Source: a virus. From it: a stretch of 64,000 nucleotides of DNA. The stretch covers positions 1 to 64,000 of the IMG/VR virus record IMGVR_UViG_3300032288_004534; one strand, written 5' to 3'. Below, piece after piece: positions 11,647-24,153 of the stretch. A program made the translations under genes and the position numbers. Every line of letters starts with the position of its first letter. Within the stretch, counting starts at the first letter, position 1. The notes below the pieces were generated by a model. That model saw only the letters and a program-made list of their open reading frames with translations. It was not told the DNA's origin and did not search any database.

Positions 11647-12297
11647 TTAAAGCTTGGTAATAAAATCGCGGAACACGTTTAGCACTTCCGATTCGGTGCG
11701 ACGTGAACGAGAAGCTTCGTTTATGCGAGTCTTATAACCAGCAATGTCGACTTCTTTCAAAATTCCATTATCCCAAACCCATTCTTTACCTTCCATAACA
11801 CCATGTACAAATGCATCTGGAGCGGAAGGGTCAGCGACAATATCCGCAGCTGTTGCTAGATGAAAGTCATCTTGAACTTCCATGCAACCGTTACGTTCCT
11901 TTAAAGAACCCATACCACGAGTAGATACCCCAAGACGAGCACCTTCATCCATAAGATTCTTGACAATATTACCATATGGTGTATCCATGATCTTGGCACG
12001 ACCAATGTAATTATTTCCATCTTCGCGCAATTCTTTGATCATGTGTGATACACGCTCAAGATTGATGGTTGGTCCTGATGGGTGACCAAGCTCACCATAA
12101 GCACGATTTTGTTTGATATGTTCATCAACATATCGATTAACTTCGCGCTCCATGATGTGCTTTGGATATGAGCGATTATTACGGTTCTTTTGTTCGGCCT
12201 GCATAAACACGCCTTCAATGAAATAACTGCGTCCACCGCGCTCATTAGCCTCGGTGATGACTTTCAATTCTTCATTGACTTCGCATATGAGTTTCAT
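11647..12297 (-). CDS. 21: gp21 prohead core protease
   Basis: A 216-residue serine protease (T4 gp21 is 212) of the herpesvirus-assemblin-like group. The catalytic His72 is in GELGHPSG and Ser125 in GVSTRGMG, both family landmarks. The N-terminal ANERGGRSYFIEGVFMQAE and NRNNRSYP match other gp21 proteins. It cleaves the scaffold and the capsid protein after I/L-x-E, then itself. It sits between the small unknown protein and gp22, in T4 order apart from that extra gene. AAGGA precedes the ATG. Confidence 0.96.
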   Translation of the reverse strand: MKLICEVNEELKVITEANERGGRSYFIEGVFMQAEQKNRNNRSYPKHIMEREVNRYVDEHIKQNRAYGELGHPSGPTINLERVSHMIKELREDGNNYIGRAKIMDTPYGNIVKNLMDEGARLGVSTRGMGSLKERNGCMEVQDDFHLATAADIVADPSAPDAFVHGVMEGKEWVWDNGILKEVDIAGYKTRINEASRSRRTESEVLNVFRDFITKL

Positions 12298-12309: not shown

Positions 12310-12693
12310 TTAGTAAGATGAACCGCCGGCAATAACCGGCCGTTTGTGTAATTTAATTACCAAGGAAGCAGGACCAGTACCTGCTCTAGTCACTACAACA
12401 TTTGCCGAAGCTTCGCCGCCTGTCTCAAGACCAATACCAGCAGCTTGAAAATCCATTGTGCCAGTTAATGCAAGATTTAATACATTGTTGGCACCGCGCT
12501 TGATATTAAATGTTACACCATTTGCAGCCGACCAAGAGACCACTGAAATTGCCATTTCTTGAACTGTTTCACCTGCTGAGTTAGCAGCTACAACAGCATT
12601 GGAACTGTTTAGAGCGATATAGCCACCGGCAGAAAAATTACCGGTGACATAACCACCCTTAACTCCTTTATTGACTACGCGATCAATGGCCAT
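12310..12693 (-). CDS. Unknown protein in the prohead operon
   Basis: A 127-residue protein between the gp68-like gene and gp21. I do not recognise a function. It is small, neutral and beta-rich in appearance: many Gly, Ala, Val, Asn and Thr, with short alternating stretches such as YVTGNFSAGGYIALNS and ANVVVTRAG, and no membrane segment. This composition suggests a compact beta-sandwich. From the location one could guess a capsid decoration or accessory head protein. The start was placed at the ATG with AGGAG 7 bases upstream; a longer frame upstream overlaps the preceding gene and lacks such a site. Confidence 0.75.
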   Translation of the reverse strand: MAIDRVVNKGVKGGYVTGNFSAGGYIALNSSNAVVAANSAGETVQEMAISVVSWSAANGVTFNIKRGANNVLNLALTGTMDFQAAGIGLETGGEASANVVVTRAGTGPASLVIKLHKRPVIAGGSSY

Positions 12694-13399
12694 CTTCTGA
12701 CTCCTGGGCGTCAATGCTAAATGCAAAATCGATTAGCTCGCGGAGACCTTCTGCGCTAGATGAACCAATCTCAATAAATTTCTTAGCATTTTCATCTTCA
12801 AGCAGCGAATATACTTCAGCTAGCTTTTCAGCAATTGTATCAGCCACATCAACATGACCATCTTCAAAAATTACGCGGCCTCCAATGCGAGATTCTACAA
12901 TACGAAGAATCCCAAATTGCATTGATTCGCGGAATTGCTTGATTGATACTCTAGGTGTCTTTTCAGCAAACGGAGCAACCGCTGATGGTGAAGTGCGAAC
13001 TGGTGATGTCTCACCACCGCGCTTATCAGCATAGTTTGTTGGTGTCTGCTTTGTGTAAGAACCTAACTCAGGACCTTTAACAGTAGAGGTGCCCTGAGTT
13101 ACCTTTTCACGATCACCAACTTTGGGTTCATCGCCTGCACGATGATTGATGCGTGTCTTAGTATCTGCTTGGTTCTTATTATTATCTTGGTCACCAAAGT
13201 CTGTCGTGGTTGATGTATGCATGGCCTTGAAGGCCTTTTCACCAGCAGCCTTGGGTTCAAGAGAACCAGATTCATCGTCATCTACCGAAGTATCAGAACG
13301 ATATGTGCGCTTCTTAGCTTGAACAGTGGCGACATATGCGCCAGCGCCTTCACGTAGGCGAAGCGCCTTTTCTCTAATATCTTTAAGAGTTTTCGCCAT
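12683..13399 (-). CDS. 68: gp68-like prohead core protein
   Basis: A 238-residue protein in the T4 gene 68 position (20-67-68-21). The first 30 residues (AKTLKDIREKALRLREGAG) are helical and basic. A long polar, disordered middle rich in Thr, Lys, Asp and Gln follows, including GGETSPVRTSP, similar to gp22 N-terminal sequence. The last 90 residues (RVSIKQFRESMQFGILRIVE onward) look folded and helical. T4 gp68 is 141 residues, so this is longer. Identification rests mainly on context. The start has GGAGG 6 bases upstream, and it overlaps the gp67-like gene. Confidence 0.6.
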   Translation of the reverse strand: MAKTLKDIREKALRLREGAGAYVATVQAKKRTYRSDTSVDDDESGSLEPKAAGEKAFKAMHTSTTTDFGDQDNNKNQADTKTRINHRAGDEPKVGDREKVTQGTSTVKGPELGSYTKQTPTNYADKRGGETSPVRTSPSAVAPFAEKTPRVSIKQFRESMQFGILRIVESRIGGRVIFEDGHVDVADTIAEKLAEVYSLLEDENAKKFIEIGSSSAEGLRELIDFAFSIDAQESEDGH

Positions 13400-13586
13400 T
13401 TGTCGCCTCCGATGATTGTGCATCAGGAGCAACATCACCGAACATTTGCGAAGCGACGCTAACCTTTTCAACATCCATTCTATTAACCAGTTTATCCATC
13501 AAGATGCTTTTGATGGTCTGAGAAAATTCTACTGGATTGCCACTACGAAGGCTATCTACTGCGTCACGTATAGAATCAAGAGACAT
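13383..13586 (-). CDS. 67: gp67-like prohead core protein
   Basis: A 67-residue protein in the T4 gene 67 position. SLDSIRDAVDSLRSGNPVEF, then KSILMDKLVNRMDVEKVSVA, parallels the N-terminal helices of T4 gp67 (80 residues). The very acidic T4 tail is replaced here by a short polar end. T4 gp67 is a minor scaffold component that shapes the prohead. AGGAG lies 9 bases before the ATG and a perfect TATAAATA element is 33 bases upstream, so the prohead operon appears to restart transcription after the inserted fibre and Bug-like genes. Confidence 0.7.
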   Translation of the reverse strand: MSLDSIRDAVDSLRSGNPVEFSQTIKSILMDKLVNRMDVEKVSVASQMFGDVAPDAQSSEATNGENS

Positions 13587-13618: not shown

Positions 13619-13626
13619 TATTTATA
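13619..13626 (-). promoter_or_regulatory. Late promoter, TATAAATA (gp67)
   Basis: A perfect consensus match in the 47-base gap between the Bug-like gene and gp67, 33 bases before the gp67 ATG. Confidence 0.75.
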
Positions 13627-13633
13627 ATAAAAG

Positions 13634-14581
13634 TCATCGAATAGAAGGCCATCTTCTAATTTCACTATTAATCAATGACTCATGTTCTTGTAAAGAAACA
13701 TTTAATATATCTTGAGGTTCAATACCAAGTGTTTCAAGTTTTTTACGAATCTCAGTTGAATTTATGGATGACATTACAATTCTATTGAGTTCTTCTCGTA
13801 TAGGTCTTGGTGTATTTGACTTAACCCAAAAAGCTTGAAATGCATAAAATTCATCATTGACACCCAATTCTTTCCATGTAGGAATGTCTGGAAATGATGA
13901 TCTGCGATTACCTGAGCTAATCATTAAAGCTTGACCACCAGCATCGACCAGCTGTCTAGCACTAGGAACCTCAACAGACATTATATCAATTCTACCAGCG
14001 GTGAAATCTACTATGGCTGGAGCTAAACCTGTATATGGTACGTTAAGCATTCGACCACCAATGCCATCTAGAAATACCAAGACACCCATACCAGCTATGC
14101 CGCCGCCACCTATCGAAACAAATGAAAGAGATTCTGGTGCACCTCTAATTCTATCGATATATTGACGTGCATTAGTTATATTTGATGATCTTGATGCAAC
14201 TGTGACTAATGGTGTTTTAACAACAACACTTGCTATGGTAACTTCTCTCAACAAGTCAAGTGTTAAATCTGGATTGAATCTTCGAACCGCAGTCACACCA
14301 TTTCCAGCTAACATCATTGTATGGCCATCTGATGGTTGATTTATCATATACTGCGCGCCTACAGCAACAAATCCACCGGGTCGATTTTCAACAATAACTG
14401 ATTGCTTTATCTCAGTAGAAATACCTTCAGCTATAATACGCGCTAATACATCTGCATATCCACCAGCATTAAAGGGCACCACTATTCTTAATGGTCTTTG
14501 ACCAAAATGCTGATATTGTGAAGCTTGTGCATTTACAAAACACATTGTAAACATCAAACCCAAAATCAATAATCTAAACAT
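13634..14581 (-). CDS. Bug/TctC-family periplasmic solute-binding protein
   Basis: A 315-residue protein with a clear signal peptide: FRLLILGLMFTMCFVNAQA, cleavage probably near residue 20. It continues with PLRIVVPFNAGGYADVLARI, VIVENRPGGFVAVGA and PSDGHTMMLAG, then NVPYTGLAPAIVDFTAGRID and FPDIPTWKELG. These are, in order, the signature segments of the Bug (TctC) family of tripartite tricarboxylate transporter binding proteins, which capture small carboxylates in the periplasm. All main blocks and the usual length are present, so it looks intact. GAGG lies 6 bases before the chosen ATG; the start falls just inside the region after the fibre stop codon. No transporter partners (TctA, TctB) are in the window. 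The ligand and its use in a virion or infected cell are unknown. Confidence 0.92.
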   Translation of the reverse strand: MFRLLILGLMFTMCFVNAQASQYQHFGQRPLRIVVPFNAGGYADVLARIIAEGISTEIKQSVIVENRPGGFVAVGAQYMINQPSDGHTMMLAGNGVTAVRRFNPDLTLDLLREVTIASVVVKTPLVTVASRSSNITNARQYIDRIRGAPESLSFVSIGGGGIAGMGVLVFLDGIGGRMLNVPYTGLAPAIVDFTAGRIDIMSVEVPSARQLVDAGGQALMISSGNRRSSFPDIPTWKELGVNDEFYAFQAFWVKSNTPRPIREELNRIVMSSINSTEIRKKLETLGIEPQDILNVSLQEHESLINSEIRRWPSIR

Positions 14582-14594
14582 TTTATACCTCATA

Positions 14595-17500
14595 TCATGG
14601 ATAAACTTGAGCACCAGTAGAATCATATATGTATATTGGTGCAACAGTGGTTGCACCATCTGGATAACGGAATCCACCAGTAGATGAACGGATAATACCT
14701 GCAACATCAAGCGTTGTGTTTGGTGTCACAGTATTCACACCAATTCGGCTTGCATTTTTCTGAATGAATAGCTTGCCGCTACTGAAGTTTAGCACAGCAG
14801 GTGTGATAGCTACAGTATTACCTGTTATTGTCAGTGTATTTGTAACGGCAGAACCAAGAACTGTATTGCCGGATACCGTTAGATTTGAATTGGCAAATAG
14901 TGTGCCATTGATTGTTGTTCTTTCTGCGGTCGCATTAGGATCACCAAGAACTGTGTTACCTGAGACATACAAGTTTTGACTAATTGCTGCTCGACCGGTA
15001 TGAGAAATTAATCCAGTTGATATAATTGTCTTAGCGGCACCACCAAGTGTTGTATTGCCAGATACCGTCAGATTATTATCAATAGTCTGACGACCCGTAA
15101 CAGTTAGCAGACCGGTAATACCAGTTGTTTTAGCAGCAGCACCAAATGTGGTGTTACCAGAAACCGTTAAATTTTGAGATATTGTTTGCAGTGTTGCAGC
15201 TATTGTACCACCGATAATTGTAGATACACCAGCTCGACCCATAGTTACTTGGCCCGCTGTTGTTGTTATAAGAACCGCAGCATTAGGATTAATATTAATG
15301 CTTGTAGCGCCTGATGCTGTAATACCACCATTAAATGTTGTATTACCTGATACTGTCAGATTGGTGCTAATTGTAGCACGTCCAGTATGAGATAATAAAC
15401 CTGTGGTTGTGATTGTCTTAGCAGCAGCACCAAGTGTTGTATTACCAGATACCGTCAGATTATTATCAATAGTCTGACGGCCAGTAACAGTTAGCAGACC
15501 AGTGATATCAGTTGTCTTAGCAGCAGCACCAAGTGTTGTATTGCCAGATACGGTCAGATTACCATTAGCTGCTAAAATTCCATTAACAATTGTTTTCTTT
15601 AAAGCTGTACCAAGGACGCTATTGCCTGTTACTGCCAAGCTTGTACCAATAGTTGCACGACCTGAATGTGCAAGCAATCCTGACGTTGTTAATGTCTTAC
15701 CAGTACCGCCTAAAGTTGTATTACCGGTATGAATTATATTGCAATTAGCATACAATGTTCCATTGATAATCGTGCGTTCTGCGGTATTTGCCGGATCACC
15801 AAGAACAGTATTACCAAAGACATACAAATTATCTTTGATATTTTGAGAACCGTTAGCATTTAAACGACCATTTACTACCATGGTCTTAGCTGCGGCACCA
15901 AAGACTGAATTACCTGAAACTCTAAAGCTAGTGGTTACTGTGGCCCTTCCGCTATGGGCTAGAAGTCCTGAAGTTGTAGGATTGATTTTTGTGACATATA
16001 ATGTAGCAGCGTTAGCTACTTGCAATTTATCATCAATCAATGAACGAATTGCAGTATTGGTTGCTAGTAGATTGGTTCTAACATTTGTGATAGCAAGATT
16101 TGTATTTGCTAGACGTGCATTTGCAGTTGACTTAGTTTCATATGTTGCGACAGCATTAGCAATCTGCAATCTATCCGCAATCAATGTGCGAAGTGCTGTA
16201 TTGGTTGATGTTAAGTTATTTTTAGCATTTTCTATAGATGTATTTGTATTAGCTAGCCGTGCATTTGCTGAAGTTTTAGTTTCATATGTTGCGACAGCAT
16301 TAGCAACCTGCAATCTATCCGCAATCAATGTGCGAAGTGCTGTATTGGTAGAAGTCAAACCTGTCTTGACATTTGTAATGGCAAGATTTGTATTAGCTAA
16401 TTGGCTTTTAATGAAAGAATTGGTATTAGCTAAGGCCGCACGTTCTACTGCCTTTGTTTGATAGATTGTGGCAGCATTAGCAACTTGTAATCTATCTGAA
16501 ATCAAAGTGCGAAGTGCGGTATTGGTTCCTGTCAGATTTGTATTAAGTCTACCAATAGCAAGATTTGTGTTTGCTAAGGCCGCACGTTCTATTACTTTTG
16601 TCTGATATATCGCAGCAGCATTAGCAACCTGTAATCTATCCGCAATCAATGTTCGAAGTGCAGTATTAGTAGAAGTCAGACCTGTCTTGACATTTGTGAT
16701 TGCCTGATTAGTATTAGCTAAGGCCGCACGTTCTACCGCTTTTGTTTGATAAATTGCAACTGCATTAGCAACTTGTAATCTATCTGAAATCAAAGTACGA
16801 AGTGCAGTATTGGTTGATGTTAGACCGGTCTTGACATTTGTTATAGCTTGATTTGTATTGGCTAAAGCTGCCCGTTCTATAGCTTTGGTCTGGTATGTCG
16901 CAGCAGCATTAGCAACCTGTAACCTATCATCAATTAAAATACGAAGTGCAGTATTGGTTGATGTTAGACCGGTCTTGACATTTGTTATAGCTTGATTAGT
17001 ATTAGCCAATTGACTCTTGATGAAAGAGTTGGTATTAGCTAAGGCCGCACGTTCTACCGCTTTTGTTTGATAAATTGCAACTGCATTAGCAACTTGTAAT
17101 CTATCATTTATTAATAATCTTGTAGCAGCATTCTGTGCATAGCGACCTTCAAGATCATTTCCATTTATTACAATCTTTGGTGTTCTTAACACATTCATGT
17201 TAAGATTTGCAAGTTTAAATGATGAATCTGCAATTACTATATTTGTATTTGGTTCAAAATCATATTCACCAAATAGATGGAATTCTTTAGTTCCAGAATC
17301 TCTAAAGAAACCTGCATGTCTGCCGTTACCATAGTGGCCAAAGAAACCAATATCTAGATTATCTGTTACACTATTTGCGGCAAGATGCAAAAGACCATCA
17401 TCTGTGGTTATTGTTATTAACCGATTAAATGTTGTATTTCCTGTAACAACTAATTTGCCTGCTATTGTTACATTTGCTGAGAAATTAACATTACCAGCAA

Positions 17501-20500
17501 TAGATTGTGCTGAACTTGTTGTTTTACTCAGGAAATTTGTATTGACATATGTGTTAGCTGCTGCATATGCCTTTGTTGCAAATTTAGCATTCGCATTAGA
17601 AATTTGCAGTCTATCCGCGATTAATGTGCGAAGCGCAGTATTGGTGCCAGTTAGATTTGTATTCAGGTTACCAATCGCAAGATTTGTATTAGCCAAACGA
17701 GCATTTGCAGTTGATTTGGTTTCATATGTCGCAACTGCATTGGCAACTTGCAGACGGTCAGATATCAGCGTGCGAAGTGCAGTATTGGTTGATGTCAAAT
17801 TATTCTTGACATTTGTGATTGCTTGATTGGTATTGGCCAAACGAGCATTTGCAGTTGATTTGGTTTCATATGTCGCAACTGCATTGGCAACTTGCAGACG
17901 GTCATCAATTAACGTGCGAAGTGCAGTGTTGGTGCCAGTCAGATTGCTATTAACTAAAGTAATTCGGCTTGCTTCATTTGTTATTCTTGTATTGGTATTA
18001 GCAAGCTGACTCTTAATGAAAGAATTTGTATTTGCTAGACGAGCATTTGCCGTAGATTTTGTTTCATACGTAGCAACGGCATTGGCAACTTGCAGACGGT
18101 CATCAATTAACGTGCGAAGTGCAGTGTTGGTTGATGTCAGATTAGTCTTGACATTACCAATTGCTTGATTGGTATTTGCAAGAGCAGCACGTTCAATAAC
18201 TTTAGTCTGATAAATCGCGGATGCATTAGCAACCTGTAATCTATCAGCAATCAACGTGCGAAGTGCAGTATTGGTTGATGTCAAATTGGTTTTGACATTT
18301 ATGATTGATTGATTGGTATTAGCTAAAGCCGAATTAAATGTTGCATTAGATACAAATCCAGTACCTGATGCAACAGATGCAATATAAGCATTTGTATTGG
18401 CAAGAATTTGCTTAACATAAGTGTTAGATGCAGCATAAGCTTTCGTTGCAAATTTAGCATCTGCATTAGCAATTTGTAAACGATCACGAATTAAAGTGCG
18501 TAAAGCTGTATTTGTACCAGTCAGATTATTGTTTAGATTGTTAATTGCTAAATTGGTATTAGCAAGTGCGGCACGTTCAGTCGATTTTGATTGATACAAA
18601 TTATCCGCATTGGCAACTTGCAATCTATCTGCAATCAATAAGCGTAGAGCCGTATTGGTCGATGATAGATTATTTTTGGTATTGTTAATTGCAAGATTAG
18701 TATTAGCAAGTTGGCTTTTGATGAATGAATTGGTATTTGCAAGACGGGAATCTGATGTAACTTTTGTTTCATAGGTTGCAGCCGCATTAGTCACTTGCAA
18801 TCTATTTGAAATCAATGCACGAAGTGAAGTATTGGTACCAGTTAGATTTGTGTTCAGATTACCAATCGCAAGATTAGTATTCGCAAGACGTGAGTTAGAA
18901 ATTGTCTTAGTTTCATAAGTTGCAGCAGCATTGGCAACTTGCAGACGGTCAGAAATCAAACCACGTAGAGCTGTATTTGTACCTGTTAGATTACCATTTA
19001 GATTACCAATCGCAAGATTTGTATTGGCCAGACGTGAATTGGCTGTAACTTTTGTCTCATAGGTTGCGGCAGCATTGGAAACCTGCAATCTATCTGAAAT
19101 CAAAATACGAAGTGCAGTATTGGTACCAGTCAATGATGACCAAGATGCTTTAGATGCAATATAAGAATTGGTATTTGCTAATATCTGATTGACATAAGAA
19201 TTAGCAGCCTTAGTACCAATTAGACTTGTGATACTTGTTGAGAAATTGGCATTATTAGCTAAAGCATTAGCAAGCTCTGATAATGTATTCAGGGTTGTTG
19301 GTGCTGAATTTACCAAAGCTGATATTGATGAATCAACATATTGACGAATAGACGTATTGGTGCTGGTCAATGCAGACCATGTTGCTCTAGTCGCAATATA
19401 AGAATTGGTATTAGCAAGACGTGAATTAGCCGTAACTTTTGTTTCATAGGTTGCAGCCGCATTAGCAACTTGAAGTCTATCTGAAATCAAACCACGTAGA
19501 GCTGTATTTGTACCTGTCAGATTAGTTTTGACATTGGTAATTGATAAATTAGTATTTGCAAGACGTGAATTGGCCAATACCTTTGTTTCATAGGTAGCAG
19601 CAGCATTTGATACTTGCAATCTATCCGCAATTAGTATGCGGAGTGCAGTATTGGTACCTGTCAGATTTGTATTCAAATTACCAATAGCAAGATTTGTATT
19701 GGCCAGCGCAGATTTAAATGTACCCTCGGATACTCCACCACCACTAGCTACAACAGAAGCAATATAAGCATTAGTATTCGCAAGAATTTGTTTGACATAT
19801 GCATTAGATGCTGCATATGCTTTTGTTGCAAATTTAGCATCTGCATTAGTAACTTGCAATCTATCAGCAATCAAAGTACGTAAAGACGTATTTGTAGATT
19901 GAATATTGCTACGAATATTAATAATTGATTGATTAGTATTTGCAAGAATCTGTTTTACATATGTATTAGATGCTTTTAAACCAATTGAAGTTGTGATCGT
20001 AGTAGAAAAATTAGAATCATTACCTAAAGCAATTGCCAATTCTTTTAAGGTATTTAAAGTTGTAGGAGCAGAATTGACTAATGCAGATACAGATGAATCA
20101 ACATATTGACGAATAGATGTATTGGTGCTAGTTAAAGCAGACCATGTTGCTCTAGTCGCAATATAAGAATTGGTATTAGCAAGAGCGGCTCGTTCAATTG
20201 CTTTTGTTTGATATATTGCAGCGGCATTAGCCACTTGCAATCTATCTGATATCAAAATACGAAGTGCAGTATTGGTAGAAGTCAAACCTGTCTTGACATT
20301 AGTAATCGCAAGATTTGTATTAGCTAAGGTCGCATTAAATGTTGTATTAGAAACACCGCCGCCACCTGCTGATACCGATGCGATATATGCATTTGTATTA
20401 GCCAGGATCTGCTTTACATAGGTGTTAGAAGCCGCATATGATTTGGTAGCAAATTTGGCATCCGCATTAGATACTTGCAATCTATCTGATATCAAAGTAC

Positions 20501-22436
20501 GAAGTGCAGTATTGGTACCAGTTAGATTTGTTTTGACATTTGTTATAGCTTGATTAGTATTAGCTAATGCAGCATTAAATGTACCTACAGATACACCACC
20601 ACCACCTGAAACAATAGATGCGATATATGCATTTGTATTTGCTAAATCAAGTTTTGCTTGATTTATGGTTTGATATGTCGCAACTGCATTAGCAACTTGT
20701 AATCTATTCTTAATTGCAATGTTGGTATTTGCAAGACGAGCATTGGCCGTAGCTTTTGTTTCATAGGTTGCAGCAGCATTAGCCACTTGCAATCTATCTG
20801 ATATCAAAGTACGTAATGCGGTATTAGTACCAGTAAGATTTGTATTTAAGTTACTAATAGCAAGATTAGTATTAGCAAGCCCACCACTACCTGATGATAC
20901 TGATGCGATATATGCATTGGTATTTGCTAGAATCTGTTTAACATATGTGTTAGATGCAGCATAAGCTTTTGTTGCAAATTTGGCATTTGCATTAGCAACT
21001 TGTAATCTATCTTTAATTGCAATATTAGTATTAGCTAAAGCCGCATTGAATGTTGCATTAGAAACGCCGCCACCACCTGCTGATACAGATGCAATATATG
21101 CATTGGTATTAGCAAGGATTTGCTTTACATAGGTATTAGAAGCGGCATAAGCTTTAGTAGCAAATTTTGCATTTGCGTTAGCTACCTGCAAACGGTCTGC
21201 AACCAATGTTCTGATAGCAGTATTTGTGCCAGTCAGATTTGTATTAAGGCGCCCAATAGCAAGGTTTGTATTAGCTAACGCCGCATTAAATGTACCTACA
21301 GATACACCGCCGCCCCCAGATACTATTGATGCGATATATGCATTTGTATTTGCTAAATCAAGTTTTGATTGGCTTATTGTTTGATATGTTGCAACTGCAT
21401 TAGCAACTTGCAATCTAGTTTTAATTGCAGCATTGGTGTTGGCAAGAGCAGCACGCTCTACAGCTTTTGTCTGATATGTTGCAGCCGCATTAGAAACTTG
21501 TAATCTATCAGAGATTAAAGTACGCAGTGCAGTATTAGTGCTAGTTAAATTACCTTTAACATTTGCAATCGCAAGATTTGTATTAGCCAAAATCTGCTTA
21601 ACATATGTGTTAGATGCTGCATAAGCTTTACTAGCATATGTGTCAGTAAGATATGCATTTGATACCAAAGTTTCTGTTTGGCCTGATTGCGTGATAACCT
21701 TAAGCTGTCCTGTTGCACTAGATTTTAGAACAGTATTTCCTAAAAATATAGTGCTACCACTTAGATACAGATTTGCATATCTACGCCCAGGTGAACCAAT
21801 ATTGAAAGTATTATTTGATGAAGGAATAATAGCACGTGTCTGAATAGTAGTGGTAAAATTATTAGTGGCCCCACCACCGCCACCACCACCAACTATTGTA
21901 TTAGCTTGCCATTTACCTAGAGTCTCATTCCATACTAAAGCTTGCCCGTCTGTAGCAGCATCAACAGAATTGATATCAACATCATCAAGACGATTTAATT
22001 TTGTCTCACCAGATCCACCATGCTTTGCTGCTAATGCAAGACGAGTTGCTTGTGAGCTAACTCTCTGTGAAAGTTCATCAAATTTGTTAGTAAGTTTTTC
22101 TTCAACAGAAGACACGTCTCCCGCAGGGCCTTGAGGACCTACTGGACCTACTGGACCGCGATCACCCTTTTCGCCTTGTGGACCTGCAGGACCAATATCA
22201 CCCTTTTCGCCTTTTTCTCCTTTAGGACCTTGCGCTCCTACTGGACCAGGAATACCAGGAAGACCACGATCACCTTTAGGACCAGCGGGCCCACCAGATG
22301 GACCCTGAGGCCCTTCAGGTCCTTGAGGTATCTTGCGAATTTCCTCAAGCAGCTTATTTTCAACTTTGTCGGCTTCATTTTGAGCAGCCTTTAATGCGGC
22401 CGCAAGTATTTTAGCTGCTTCTATGGAAAGAGTCAC
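14595..22436 (-). CDS. Giant repetitive fibre protein with collagen-like N-terminal region
   Basis: A 2613-residue protein. Order of parts: an N-terminal helix (1-36); collagen-like Gly-x-y repeats (about 38-106); a short linker with [12 protein letters not shown] and a poly-Gly stretch; a very long stalk of about 29 degenerate units carrying [16 protein letters not shown] and DRLQVANA; a non-repeat domain at about 1640-1770 ([18 protein letters not shown] and following); more stalk; a second repeat type built on [13 protein letters not shown]; and a C-terminal domain of about 65 residues ending in [12 protein letters not shown]. The C-terminal domain is shared with the 175-residue fibre at 38.0-38.6 kb. 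The GTG start has AAGGGG 8 bases upstream inside gp20, whose stop is 4 bases away. Likely a trimeric tail or head fibre; which one is not shown. Confidence 0.85.
15980..21840 (-). repeat. Coding array of about 29 degenerate [13 protein letters not shown] units
   Basis: Tandem coding repeats inside the giant fibre gene. A unit is roughly 40 codons with the anchors [14 protein letters not shown] and DRLQVANA followed by TYETK, IYQTK or KFATK. Some units are shortened or carry inserts (for example [15 protein letters not shown]). The array is interrupted once, at about 17130-17540, by the non-repeat domain. DNA copies are diverged but strongly similar. Confidence 0.9.
22119..22325 (-). repeat. 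Collagen-like Gly-x-y coding repeats in the giant fibre
   Basis: About 23 Gly-x-y triplets such as [19 protein letters not shown], near residues 38-106. Pro-, Lys-Gly-Glu/Asp-rich triplets are typical of phage collagen-like trimer stalks. Confidence 0.9.
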
Positions 22437-22440
22437 TATC

Positions 22441-24153
22441 TTAACCCCTTGACCTATTAGACGTATTTAATGTATCTTCAGCATCATATGTGCCTATCTT
22501 AGTTATATCTATAGGGTCTCCCTCATTTAGTATTTCTATAGCTTTAGTCATAGATTCTATCAACATTTTTTCTTCATCAGACAATGGTTTATTACTTGAT
22601 TCATTTTTCTGATCAGGTTCATCTAGCATCTGTTCAGGTTCAGTTTTCTTAGCCTGAATTGCTTGATCCATTTCATCGGCCGAAGCTTCTTGCATTTCAG
22701 ATTCCATTTCTTCAATTTCTTCATCAGTAAATCGAAGAACGTTTTTCTGCACCCATTCTTTTGTATAGAATTGATTAATATAAGGTGATATTGTATTCAG
22801 CAGCTGTAGGCGAGATGTCAACACCTCTTGATCTTTTAGCTCTGAAAAATAATTGTCTTTCTGGAAATCATATTTGATATATGACCGCATCTCACGCCAT
22901 TCTTCGCGTGACATCACACCTTTAAGCGCAAGCTGAATTTCCATGAGATGATCAAATAGCATTGTAAAACGATGACGGAGACGACCAATGAAACGAGAGA
23001 ATTTTACTTCATCTCTGGTAATTTCATTTGAGCGTCCTAAGCTAAATTGACCATCTGGCTCAAGACGTGAAATCGGTACTGACAATGATTGATATAATTT
23101 CTTTCTGAAATAATCAACATCTGCCATTTCACCAAGATTTTGACCACCAGGCAATGTAGTAATTTCTGTACCACGGGCACCTTCACGGCGAGGCAACCAG
23201 AAATCTTCAAGCATGGTCATGAATTTGCGGTCGTCACGAACCTCACCTGTCGATGCATCATATACCAAACGATTCTTATGACGAATCATCATATCACGCA
23301 AATATTGCTCAGCTTTAGGCTTAGGTAGATTACCTACGTCAATATAGAATATGCGACGTTCAGGTGCGCGACTTAGGCGATAGATCACAACCGCATCTTC
23401 TAACATGCGTGTCTGATTAAGAGGCTTGATAGCTTTATGCAGATGTGATAGCACCATACGATTGCGATTATCAAGTATACCTGAATTTACATAGCAGATT
23501 GAATCAGGTGAAATCTTGATGCCTTGTGAATATGCTGCACCTGCAAGGCCTGCAGGATTATACAAATAATATTCTGAATAGGCAGGAACTGTGGGATTCT
23601 TATCCTTAGTCGCATCGCCATTTTCTTTTTTCTGAGGTACGCGAACCTTGCGAATACGGCGCGGATCAACATAACGTAGCTCTTTAATACCATCACGAGG
23701 TTTAGCTACGTCAATCATGATATGATAATAAAGACGACCATCAACATACCAACGACGGAATATCTCATAACAAATATTTGAAAAATCTAATAGCTCAAGA
23801 ATTTCTTCAAATTCTTCTTCTATACGTTTCTTAATACGTGTGGGTTGTTTGAGATCATCCATAGAAAGACGAACAACAGAAGCATCTTGATCGGTAACTA
23901 ATGCTTCATTGACAATGTCATCTACAGCAGCTTCAACTTCTGGATTCATAGACATTTCGCGATAGCGAGTAATAAGCTCGGCCTCGCTTTTAGCAGTGCC
24001 TTCTAAATCAACAAATGTTCCGTAAGCGCCGCCAGGTGCGATTTCAACCGCGCCGTCATCCTTCTGTTCCGGAACGAATGACGGGATCTGTACAGCCCTT
24101 TTGGCGTCTTCGTCAGCCTTGCCGATACGGAAGCCAAATAGCTCTATAGCCAT
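22441..24153 (-). CDS. 20: gp20 portal vertex protein
   Basis: The 570-residue portal (T4 gp20 is 524). [13 protein letters not shown] opens the protein, and [56 protein letters not shown] and [18 protein letters not shown] are conserved portal segments. The C-terminal 100 residues are acidic and disordered. Twelve copies form the DNA channel at the head vertex, nucleate prohead assembly and dock the terminase. The following fibre gene starts 4 bases past its stop codon. A putative late promoter lies within the terminator hairpin upstream. Confidence 0.97.

Follow-up and report, generated by a model that had tools for sequence, protein, structure and literature searches.

In many Proteobacteria the orphan solute-binding proteins of the Bug/TctC family far outnumber the TctAB membrane parts, and it has been proposed that they share TctAB or function in signalling (PMC5812351, PMC11452294). 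Marine phages encode a binding protein of another kind, the phosphate-binding PstS (PMC6359870), and among other viral sequences, a tctA domain match is on record for SUP05 viral contigs (PMC4164917), and a viral scaffold from oxygen-depleted water carries a tricarboxylate-transport gene (PMC8115048). In the open-licence literature we found no paper on phage Bug/TctC proteins. Phage Bugs as such are already known by annotation, since UniProt/BFVD holds proteins of uncultured Caudovirales labelled 'PBP2_Bug_TTT' or 'Bordetella uptake' (A0A6J5L7K0, A0A6J5T247, A0A6J5T9X7, A0A6J5M1T7, A0A6J5LDG7), which share the Bug fold with the protein described here (Foldseek E 9e-20 to 9e-10) at 16-23% identity. 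The original prediction, made from the DNA itself, knew of no T4-like structural operon with a Bug; this is half right, as it holds for 50,697 annotated phage records and fails for 15 other IMG/VR contigs presented below. The annotated records contained no convincing phage TctC: there were two matches, MT836965 and MT835824, and the first of these (MT836965.1, 8555-19316), though filed as phage, looks like a bacterial contig with TctC and TctA.

The gene analysed here lies in a window of 64,000 nucleotides, the whole stretch of DNA that was studied, taken from the 70-kb IMG/VR record IMGVR_UViG_3300032288_004534. Its neighbourhood is the following:

22441..24153, minus strand: gp20 portal protein (Portal_T4, E 7e-177)
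14595..22436, minus strand: long collagen-like repeat fibre gene, 2613 aa, directly upstream of Bug (open reading frame and Collagen Pfam match); one type of C-terminus is shared by every Bug carrier
14588..14591, minus strand: ribosome-binding site (GAGG) for Bug, between the fibre stop and the Bug start, which lie 13 bp apart (read directly)
13634..14581, minus strand: Bug/TctC solute-binding protein gene, 315 aa, starting with ATG at 14581 (PF03401, phmmer, AlphaFold/Foldseek)
14522..14581, minus strand: signal-peptide-like leader of about 20 aa, MFRLLILGLMFTMCFVNAQA, without a lipobox cysteine (read by eye)
13619..13626, minus strand: TATAAATA, a T4-type late-promoter motif, just past the Bug stop and upstream of gp67
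13383..13586, minus strand: gp67-like ORF, 67 aa (open reading frame and synteny; the name follows from position)
12683..13474, minus strand: orf263, a conserved neighbour, 97-98% identical in contigs L090 and L096-L098, although the Bugs of these contigs share just 38-58% with the window Bug
11647..12297, minus strand: gp21 prohead protease (Peptidase_S77, E 3e-38)

The gene order of T4 is gp20-67-68-21-22-23. Pfam and PHROGs confirm the T4-like nature that had been claimed for the flanks (gp20, the collagen-repeat fibre, the S77 protease gp21 and gp23), which also include a gp22-like gene; the gp67-sized ORF between Bug and orf263 had been overlooked.

The frame from 13634 to 14581 is uninterrupted from ATG to stop, and the assignment first made by reading it is borne out by the Pfam profile TctC (PF03401), which covers residues 47-314 with E 1.6e-37 and 129.9 bits against a cut-off of 27. 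With phmmer the protein matches 11 solved Bug/TctC proteins, among them TphC (7ndr, E 1.6e-30) and BugD (2f5x, E 1.1e-28), and a terephthalate-binding protein is also among its best matches; searches of PHROGs and NCBIfam gave no family assignment. In the AlphaFold model, built from 53 aligned homologues (pLDDT 90.3, pTM 0.85), the protein adopts the two-lobed Bug fold, nearest to TphC, BugD and Bug27, and ranks 1-17 of a Foldseek search against the PDB are all of Bug/TctC type (TphC: E 1.7e-25, TM 0.82-0.88). The frame stays open upstream as far as a TTG at 14710, yet the sequence marks ATG 14581 as the natural start, because the GAGG site precedes it, the leader begins there, and the ORFs of relatives start at the equivalent place or a few codons from it. 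The leader, modelled as a helix at residues 2-25, has the expected look of a putative export signal, as originally noted: by eye, a charged beginning, a hydrophobic core and small residues at the end recur in all allele groups, with varying letters. Altogether, the protein resembles the orphan Bugs of Proteobacteria (BugD, Bug27, TphC, MatC, AdpC) in Pfam family, PFxAGGxxD motif, signal-peptide-like leader and two-lobed fold (TM 0.74-0.89), with transporter genes nearby in neither case, but differs from them in its position within a phage late operon, in altered pocket residues, above all at the pincer in the window's allele group, and in its own long-stemmed clade.

This clade comprises the 11 locus Bugs, with an SH-aLRT of 100 and a stem of 1.07 changes per site in a quick-search tree of 64 TctCs. 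The bacterial Bugs sampled are at most 33% identical to those of the phages, and the best of them score about 197 bits versus about 490 for a phage member. No closer Bug emerged from 300 Burkholderiales or 337 Alphaproteobacteria genomes, in a search that scored the best few candidates per genome and had no positive control; with that proviso, a recent transfer from either group was set aside. One old acquisition is probable, given the single clade, its long stem and the lack of a close bacterial Bug.

Fifteen further IMG/VR contigs, no two of them from the same metagenome, show the order fibre, Bug, gp67-like ORF and orf263, with a few of the shorter ones ending before orf263. One of the fifteen, G048, with 155,201 bp, can be taken as complete because it has a 123-bp terminal repeat. 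Among 20 informative contigs, some of them near-copies of one another, Bug is present in 16 (window included) and absent from four (L115, L117, L118, L120); it is a viral gene that these four relatives lack, and any effect on metabolism is putative. A scan of 38 other T4-like records, mostly more distant ones, gave no Bug match, and the TctCs of contigs L101 and L103 look bacterial. As had been observed for the window, there is no TctA partner (PF01970) in the whole 70-kb record, nor in ten other records, one of them complete, so none of these 11 encodes a complete tripartite tricarboxylate transporter.

As to timing, Bug is probably read late, together with gp20 and the fibre, since it begins 13 bp behind the fibre stop, has a GAGG site and is not preceded by a TATAAATA-type late-promoter motif of its own. 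Between the Bug position and gp67, the motif occupies one conserved spot in the window as well as in 12/12 related contigs inspected, whether Bug is present or absent; the window has no more copies of it than chance predicts, and the argument for a late promoter consequently rests on this conserved place.

The simplest explanation, considering that orphan Bugs may share TctAB and that phage PstS offers a precedent, is that Bug serves as an auxiliary protein akin to PstS, made late, exported and acting through the membrane parts (TctAB) of the host, to which we give a probability of roughly 0.55. Late in infection, Bug would leave the cytoplasm via Sec; in the host periplasm its two lobes would shut on a small organic acid, or on a ligand related to one, and the loaded protein would dock onto the host's own TctA/TctB. 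Uptake would thereby be raised or redirected to supply phage synthesis, much as the PstS of cyanophages is expected to assist the host's Pst transporter. Each allele would suit other ligands or hosts, from which the swapping of the binding domain between a constant leader and constant flanks would follow. The comparison with the PstS of T4-like cyanophages, likewise an exported solute-binding protein of T4-like phages that is expected to serve a host transporter, has its bounds: Bug belongs to the secondary TTT class rather than to the ABC class, would bind another class of ligand, and is embedded between fibre and gp67 in a multi-allelic locus. Late placement, and alleles that are exchanged within a variable fibre island, would suggest interaction with the host sooner than metabolism.

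A periplasmic ligand role is favoured over a fibre role by TctCs unlinked to fibres. G048 has a second, divergent TctC (C1:70109-71062, or L209:10109-11059; PF03401 E 7e-16), overlooked in the original prediction, which has a Tat-like leader (RRNMLIG..) and directly follows a tRNA cluster; four further phage records (G049, G050, G350, G351) hold one or two TctCs away from fibres, the main ones next to another gene family, and TctA is absent from all five. Two TctCs per record are seen in G049, G350 and G351. In six contigs (L104, L105, L106, L108, L109, L110) the TctC adjoins a family of genes of 377-409 aa starting FGFYxVGxxKxxSKxEA, for which we found no convincing Pfam match. As a working guess, the host of the phage group is alphaproteobacterial, since G048 has a permuted tmRNA of alphaproteobacterial type (L210:4564-4881; RF01849, 123.5 bits, tag ANDNGFAVALAA) and its DNA matches 129/337 Alphaproteobacteria as against 0/150 Burkholderiales. 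The same genome contains a curli-type cluster (C1:38790-41653, L207/L208) of CsgF, CsgG, a curlin-repeat protein and a FecR-domain protein; curli genes have been discussed for pelagiphages and a methylophage (PMC7029224, PMC9004378).

The extreme allelic divergence of Bug, which had gone unnoticed earlier, bears on the first alternative, namely that Bug is exported late to the periplasm and there excludes rival phages or blocks a receptor at the host surface or inner membrane, using its scaffold as a binding domain, with alleles shifting according to the competitors or hosts encountered. Three allele groups can be distinguished, A (window, L001, L090), B (L005, L091-L095) and C (L096-L100, L102), within which identity is 56-75%, 81-95% and 75-98%, respectively, compared with 37-57% between groups. 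Phages with 97-99% identical gp67 and orf263 hold Bugs that are just 38-58% identical, with values falling to 38-41%; for instance, L090 and L098 share 99% of gp67, 97% of gp20 and 98% of orf263, but 41% of Bug, and their synonymous distance is 0.94 in Bug versus 0.05-0.16 in neighbouring genes (Nei-Gojobori, the larger distances being near saturation). Similarly, the window and G048 are 79-99.5% identical across the genes in 739-31885, except for the fibre (53%) and Bug (38%). The tail and baseplate region of the window (32219-57255) is 38-75% identical to G048 and the head region mostly 79-99%, a mosaic divergence. DNA identity rises sharply at the gp67 leader, from about 50% to 95-100%, and in L096 and L098 the leader-peptide region of Bug is 97% identical, the remaining Bug 67-85%. 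Together with dN/dS values of 0.07-0.22 for close pairs inside allele groups (Nei-Gojobori), which argue against a relaxed, decaying gene and for alleles that are swapped, this pattern fits old alleles that trade their binding domain and are individually kept by purifying selection.

Such exchange of old alleles, which diversifying selection might sustain, is consistent with host interaction or exclusion, as are the probable late transcription of Bug upstream of the gp67 motif and its position at the end of a hypervariable fibre island, adjoining an adhesion gene; the body of the fibre is variable too, and Bug tops the island in divergence at the protein level. Against this reading, the ligand-binding scaffold has been retained, the TctC near the tRNA genes of G048 and those of other phages have no fibre neighbour, and similarity of the fibre C-terminus is weakly linked to that of Bug across the whole set of 11 phages (Mantel r 0.38, p 0.03). 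The stronger correlation among the six closest phages (0.89, p 0.05) is what neighbouring genes would be expected to show. Superinfection-exclusion proteins are not known to share the Bug fold. On balance we consider exclusion or receptor blocking unlikely, if still the foremost of the alternatives, and we entertain with slightly more sympathy, though tentatively, a broader form of the idea, in which the fibre-adjacent Bug is a domesticated multi-allelic exported module under diversifying selection, serving to block rivals or to rewire sensing in the periplasm.

The ligand pocket bears on the auxiliary reading and on a second alternative. Its positions were taken from TphC (PMC8556258), onto which the Bug alleles were mapped:

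14450..14476, minus strand: loop 1 ligand motif P-F-N-A-G-G-Y-A-D, residues 36-44, of the family form PFxAGGxxD (alignment of 53 Bugs)
14093..14113, minus strand: loop 2 of the pocket, I157-GGGGI-A163, mapped onto TphC Q150-S156
14015..14038, minus strand: pincer loop PYTGLAPA, including T184, mapped onto TphC K177-T179

The motif of loop 1 is the one defined for the Bug family in PMC8556258, and in the alignment G40 and D44 are invariant and V35, P36, F37 and G41 are conserved in at least 90% of the 53 Bugs. The ligand loops, whose comparison had been suggested along with structure prediction, differ by allele group at the selecting positions (38 N/A; 42 Y/A/Q; 184 T,S/R; 186 L,Y/S; 204 E/T,N,I,G), with the structural positions F37, G40, G41, D44 and G185 unchanged in all alleles; different groups may well take different ligands. 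At pincer position 184, 41/42 bacterial Bugs have K or R, the window Bug has T and its allele group T or S, and this group also carries an added acidic E204 by mapping onto TphC. Accordingly, an ordinary dicarboxylate is not assured as the ligand of the window's group. In TphC the bonds S31-K177 and T35-N197 span the closed cleft (PMC8556258), and the equivalent pairs in group A, N38-T/S184 and Y42-E204, could still bond. Divergence in the pocket does not clearly exceed that elsewhere in the protein, and selection aimed at the pocket does not follow from it.

The loss of the basic pincer residue is compatible with a decoy, a Bug that would hold a nutrient or signal ligand without passing it to TctAB and so alter periplasmic signalling, much as BctC of Bordetella contributes to signalling to the sensor pair BctDE. 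The absence of TctA from the 11 phage records agrees with such a role, and an excess of TctCs with a signalling function is documented for bacteria (PMC5812351). No sensor partner is known, however, and we regard a decoy as improbable, less so than a role in the virion.

That third alternative, in which a Bug was recruited as an adhesin or as a partner of the fibre, had been raised by the original prediction on account of gene position and is now weakened. Bug does directly follow the fibre and matches it in composition (GC3 20.3 and 20.8); the T4 adhesin/chaperone gp38 is likewise encoded directly downstream of the long fibre in a variable island. But Bug, unlike gp38, has a leader, which in all alleles would send it away from virion assembly, and the fibre can do without it: L117 and L118 retain the long fibre type with its conserved end and have no Bug, the fibre stop lying 36 bp from gp67. 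Bug is thus an accessory gene that the fibre does not require, and a chaperone or adhesin that always accompanies its fibre does not match this distribution. Moreover, the fibre end is 74-81% conserved among phages whose Bugs share 38-58% identity and, as noted, tracks the allele weakly, so we hold a virion role to be very unlikely. The other two contigs lacking Bug, L115 and L120, have a short fibre with a C-terminus of the ..ISGTTYKIPYFL type where the others have the long type; this switch of fibre end goes together with the absence of Bug.

Finally, errors that join host and phage DNA do exist, as MT836965 illustrates, but nothing points to one in the window, and the assembly artefact once feared can be dismissed because identical junctions are seen again in independent contigs, the complete 155-kb genome among them.

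Of the readings first put forward, that of an auxiliary metabolic gene remains the best supported, here in the form of a protein that would be exported late and work with host TctAB. Its conserved late-operon locus, the exchange of its alleles and the paired TctCs we found described nowhere in the open-licence literature. Phage-carried binding proteins are already known for phosphate; a fixed Bug locus with divergent, swapped alleles and a second TctC suggests that small organic acids, or their sensing, matter to infection as well. The naturally occurring relatives with and without Bug that share the same fibre type, together with three allele groups having different pockets, constitute a system in which this can be tested.
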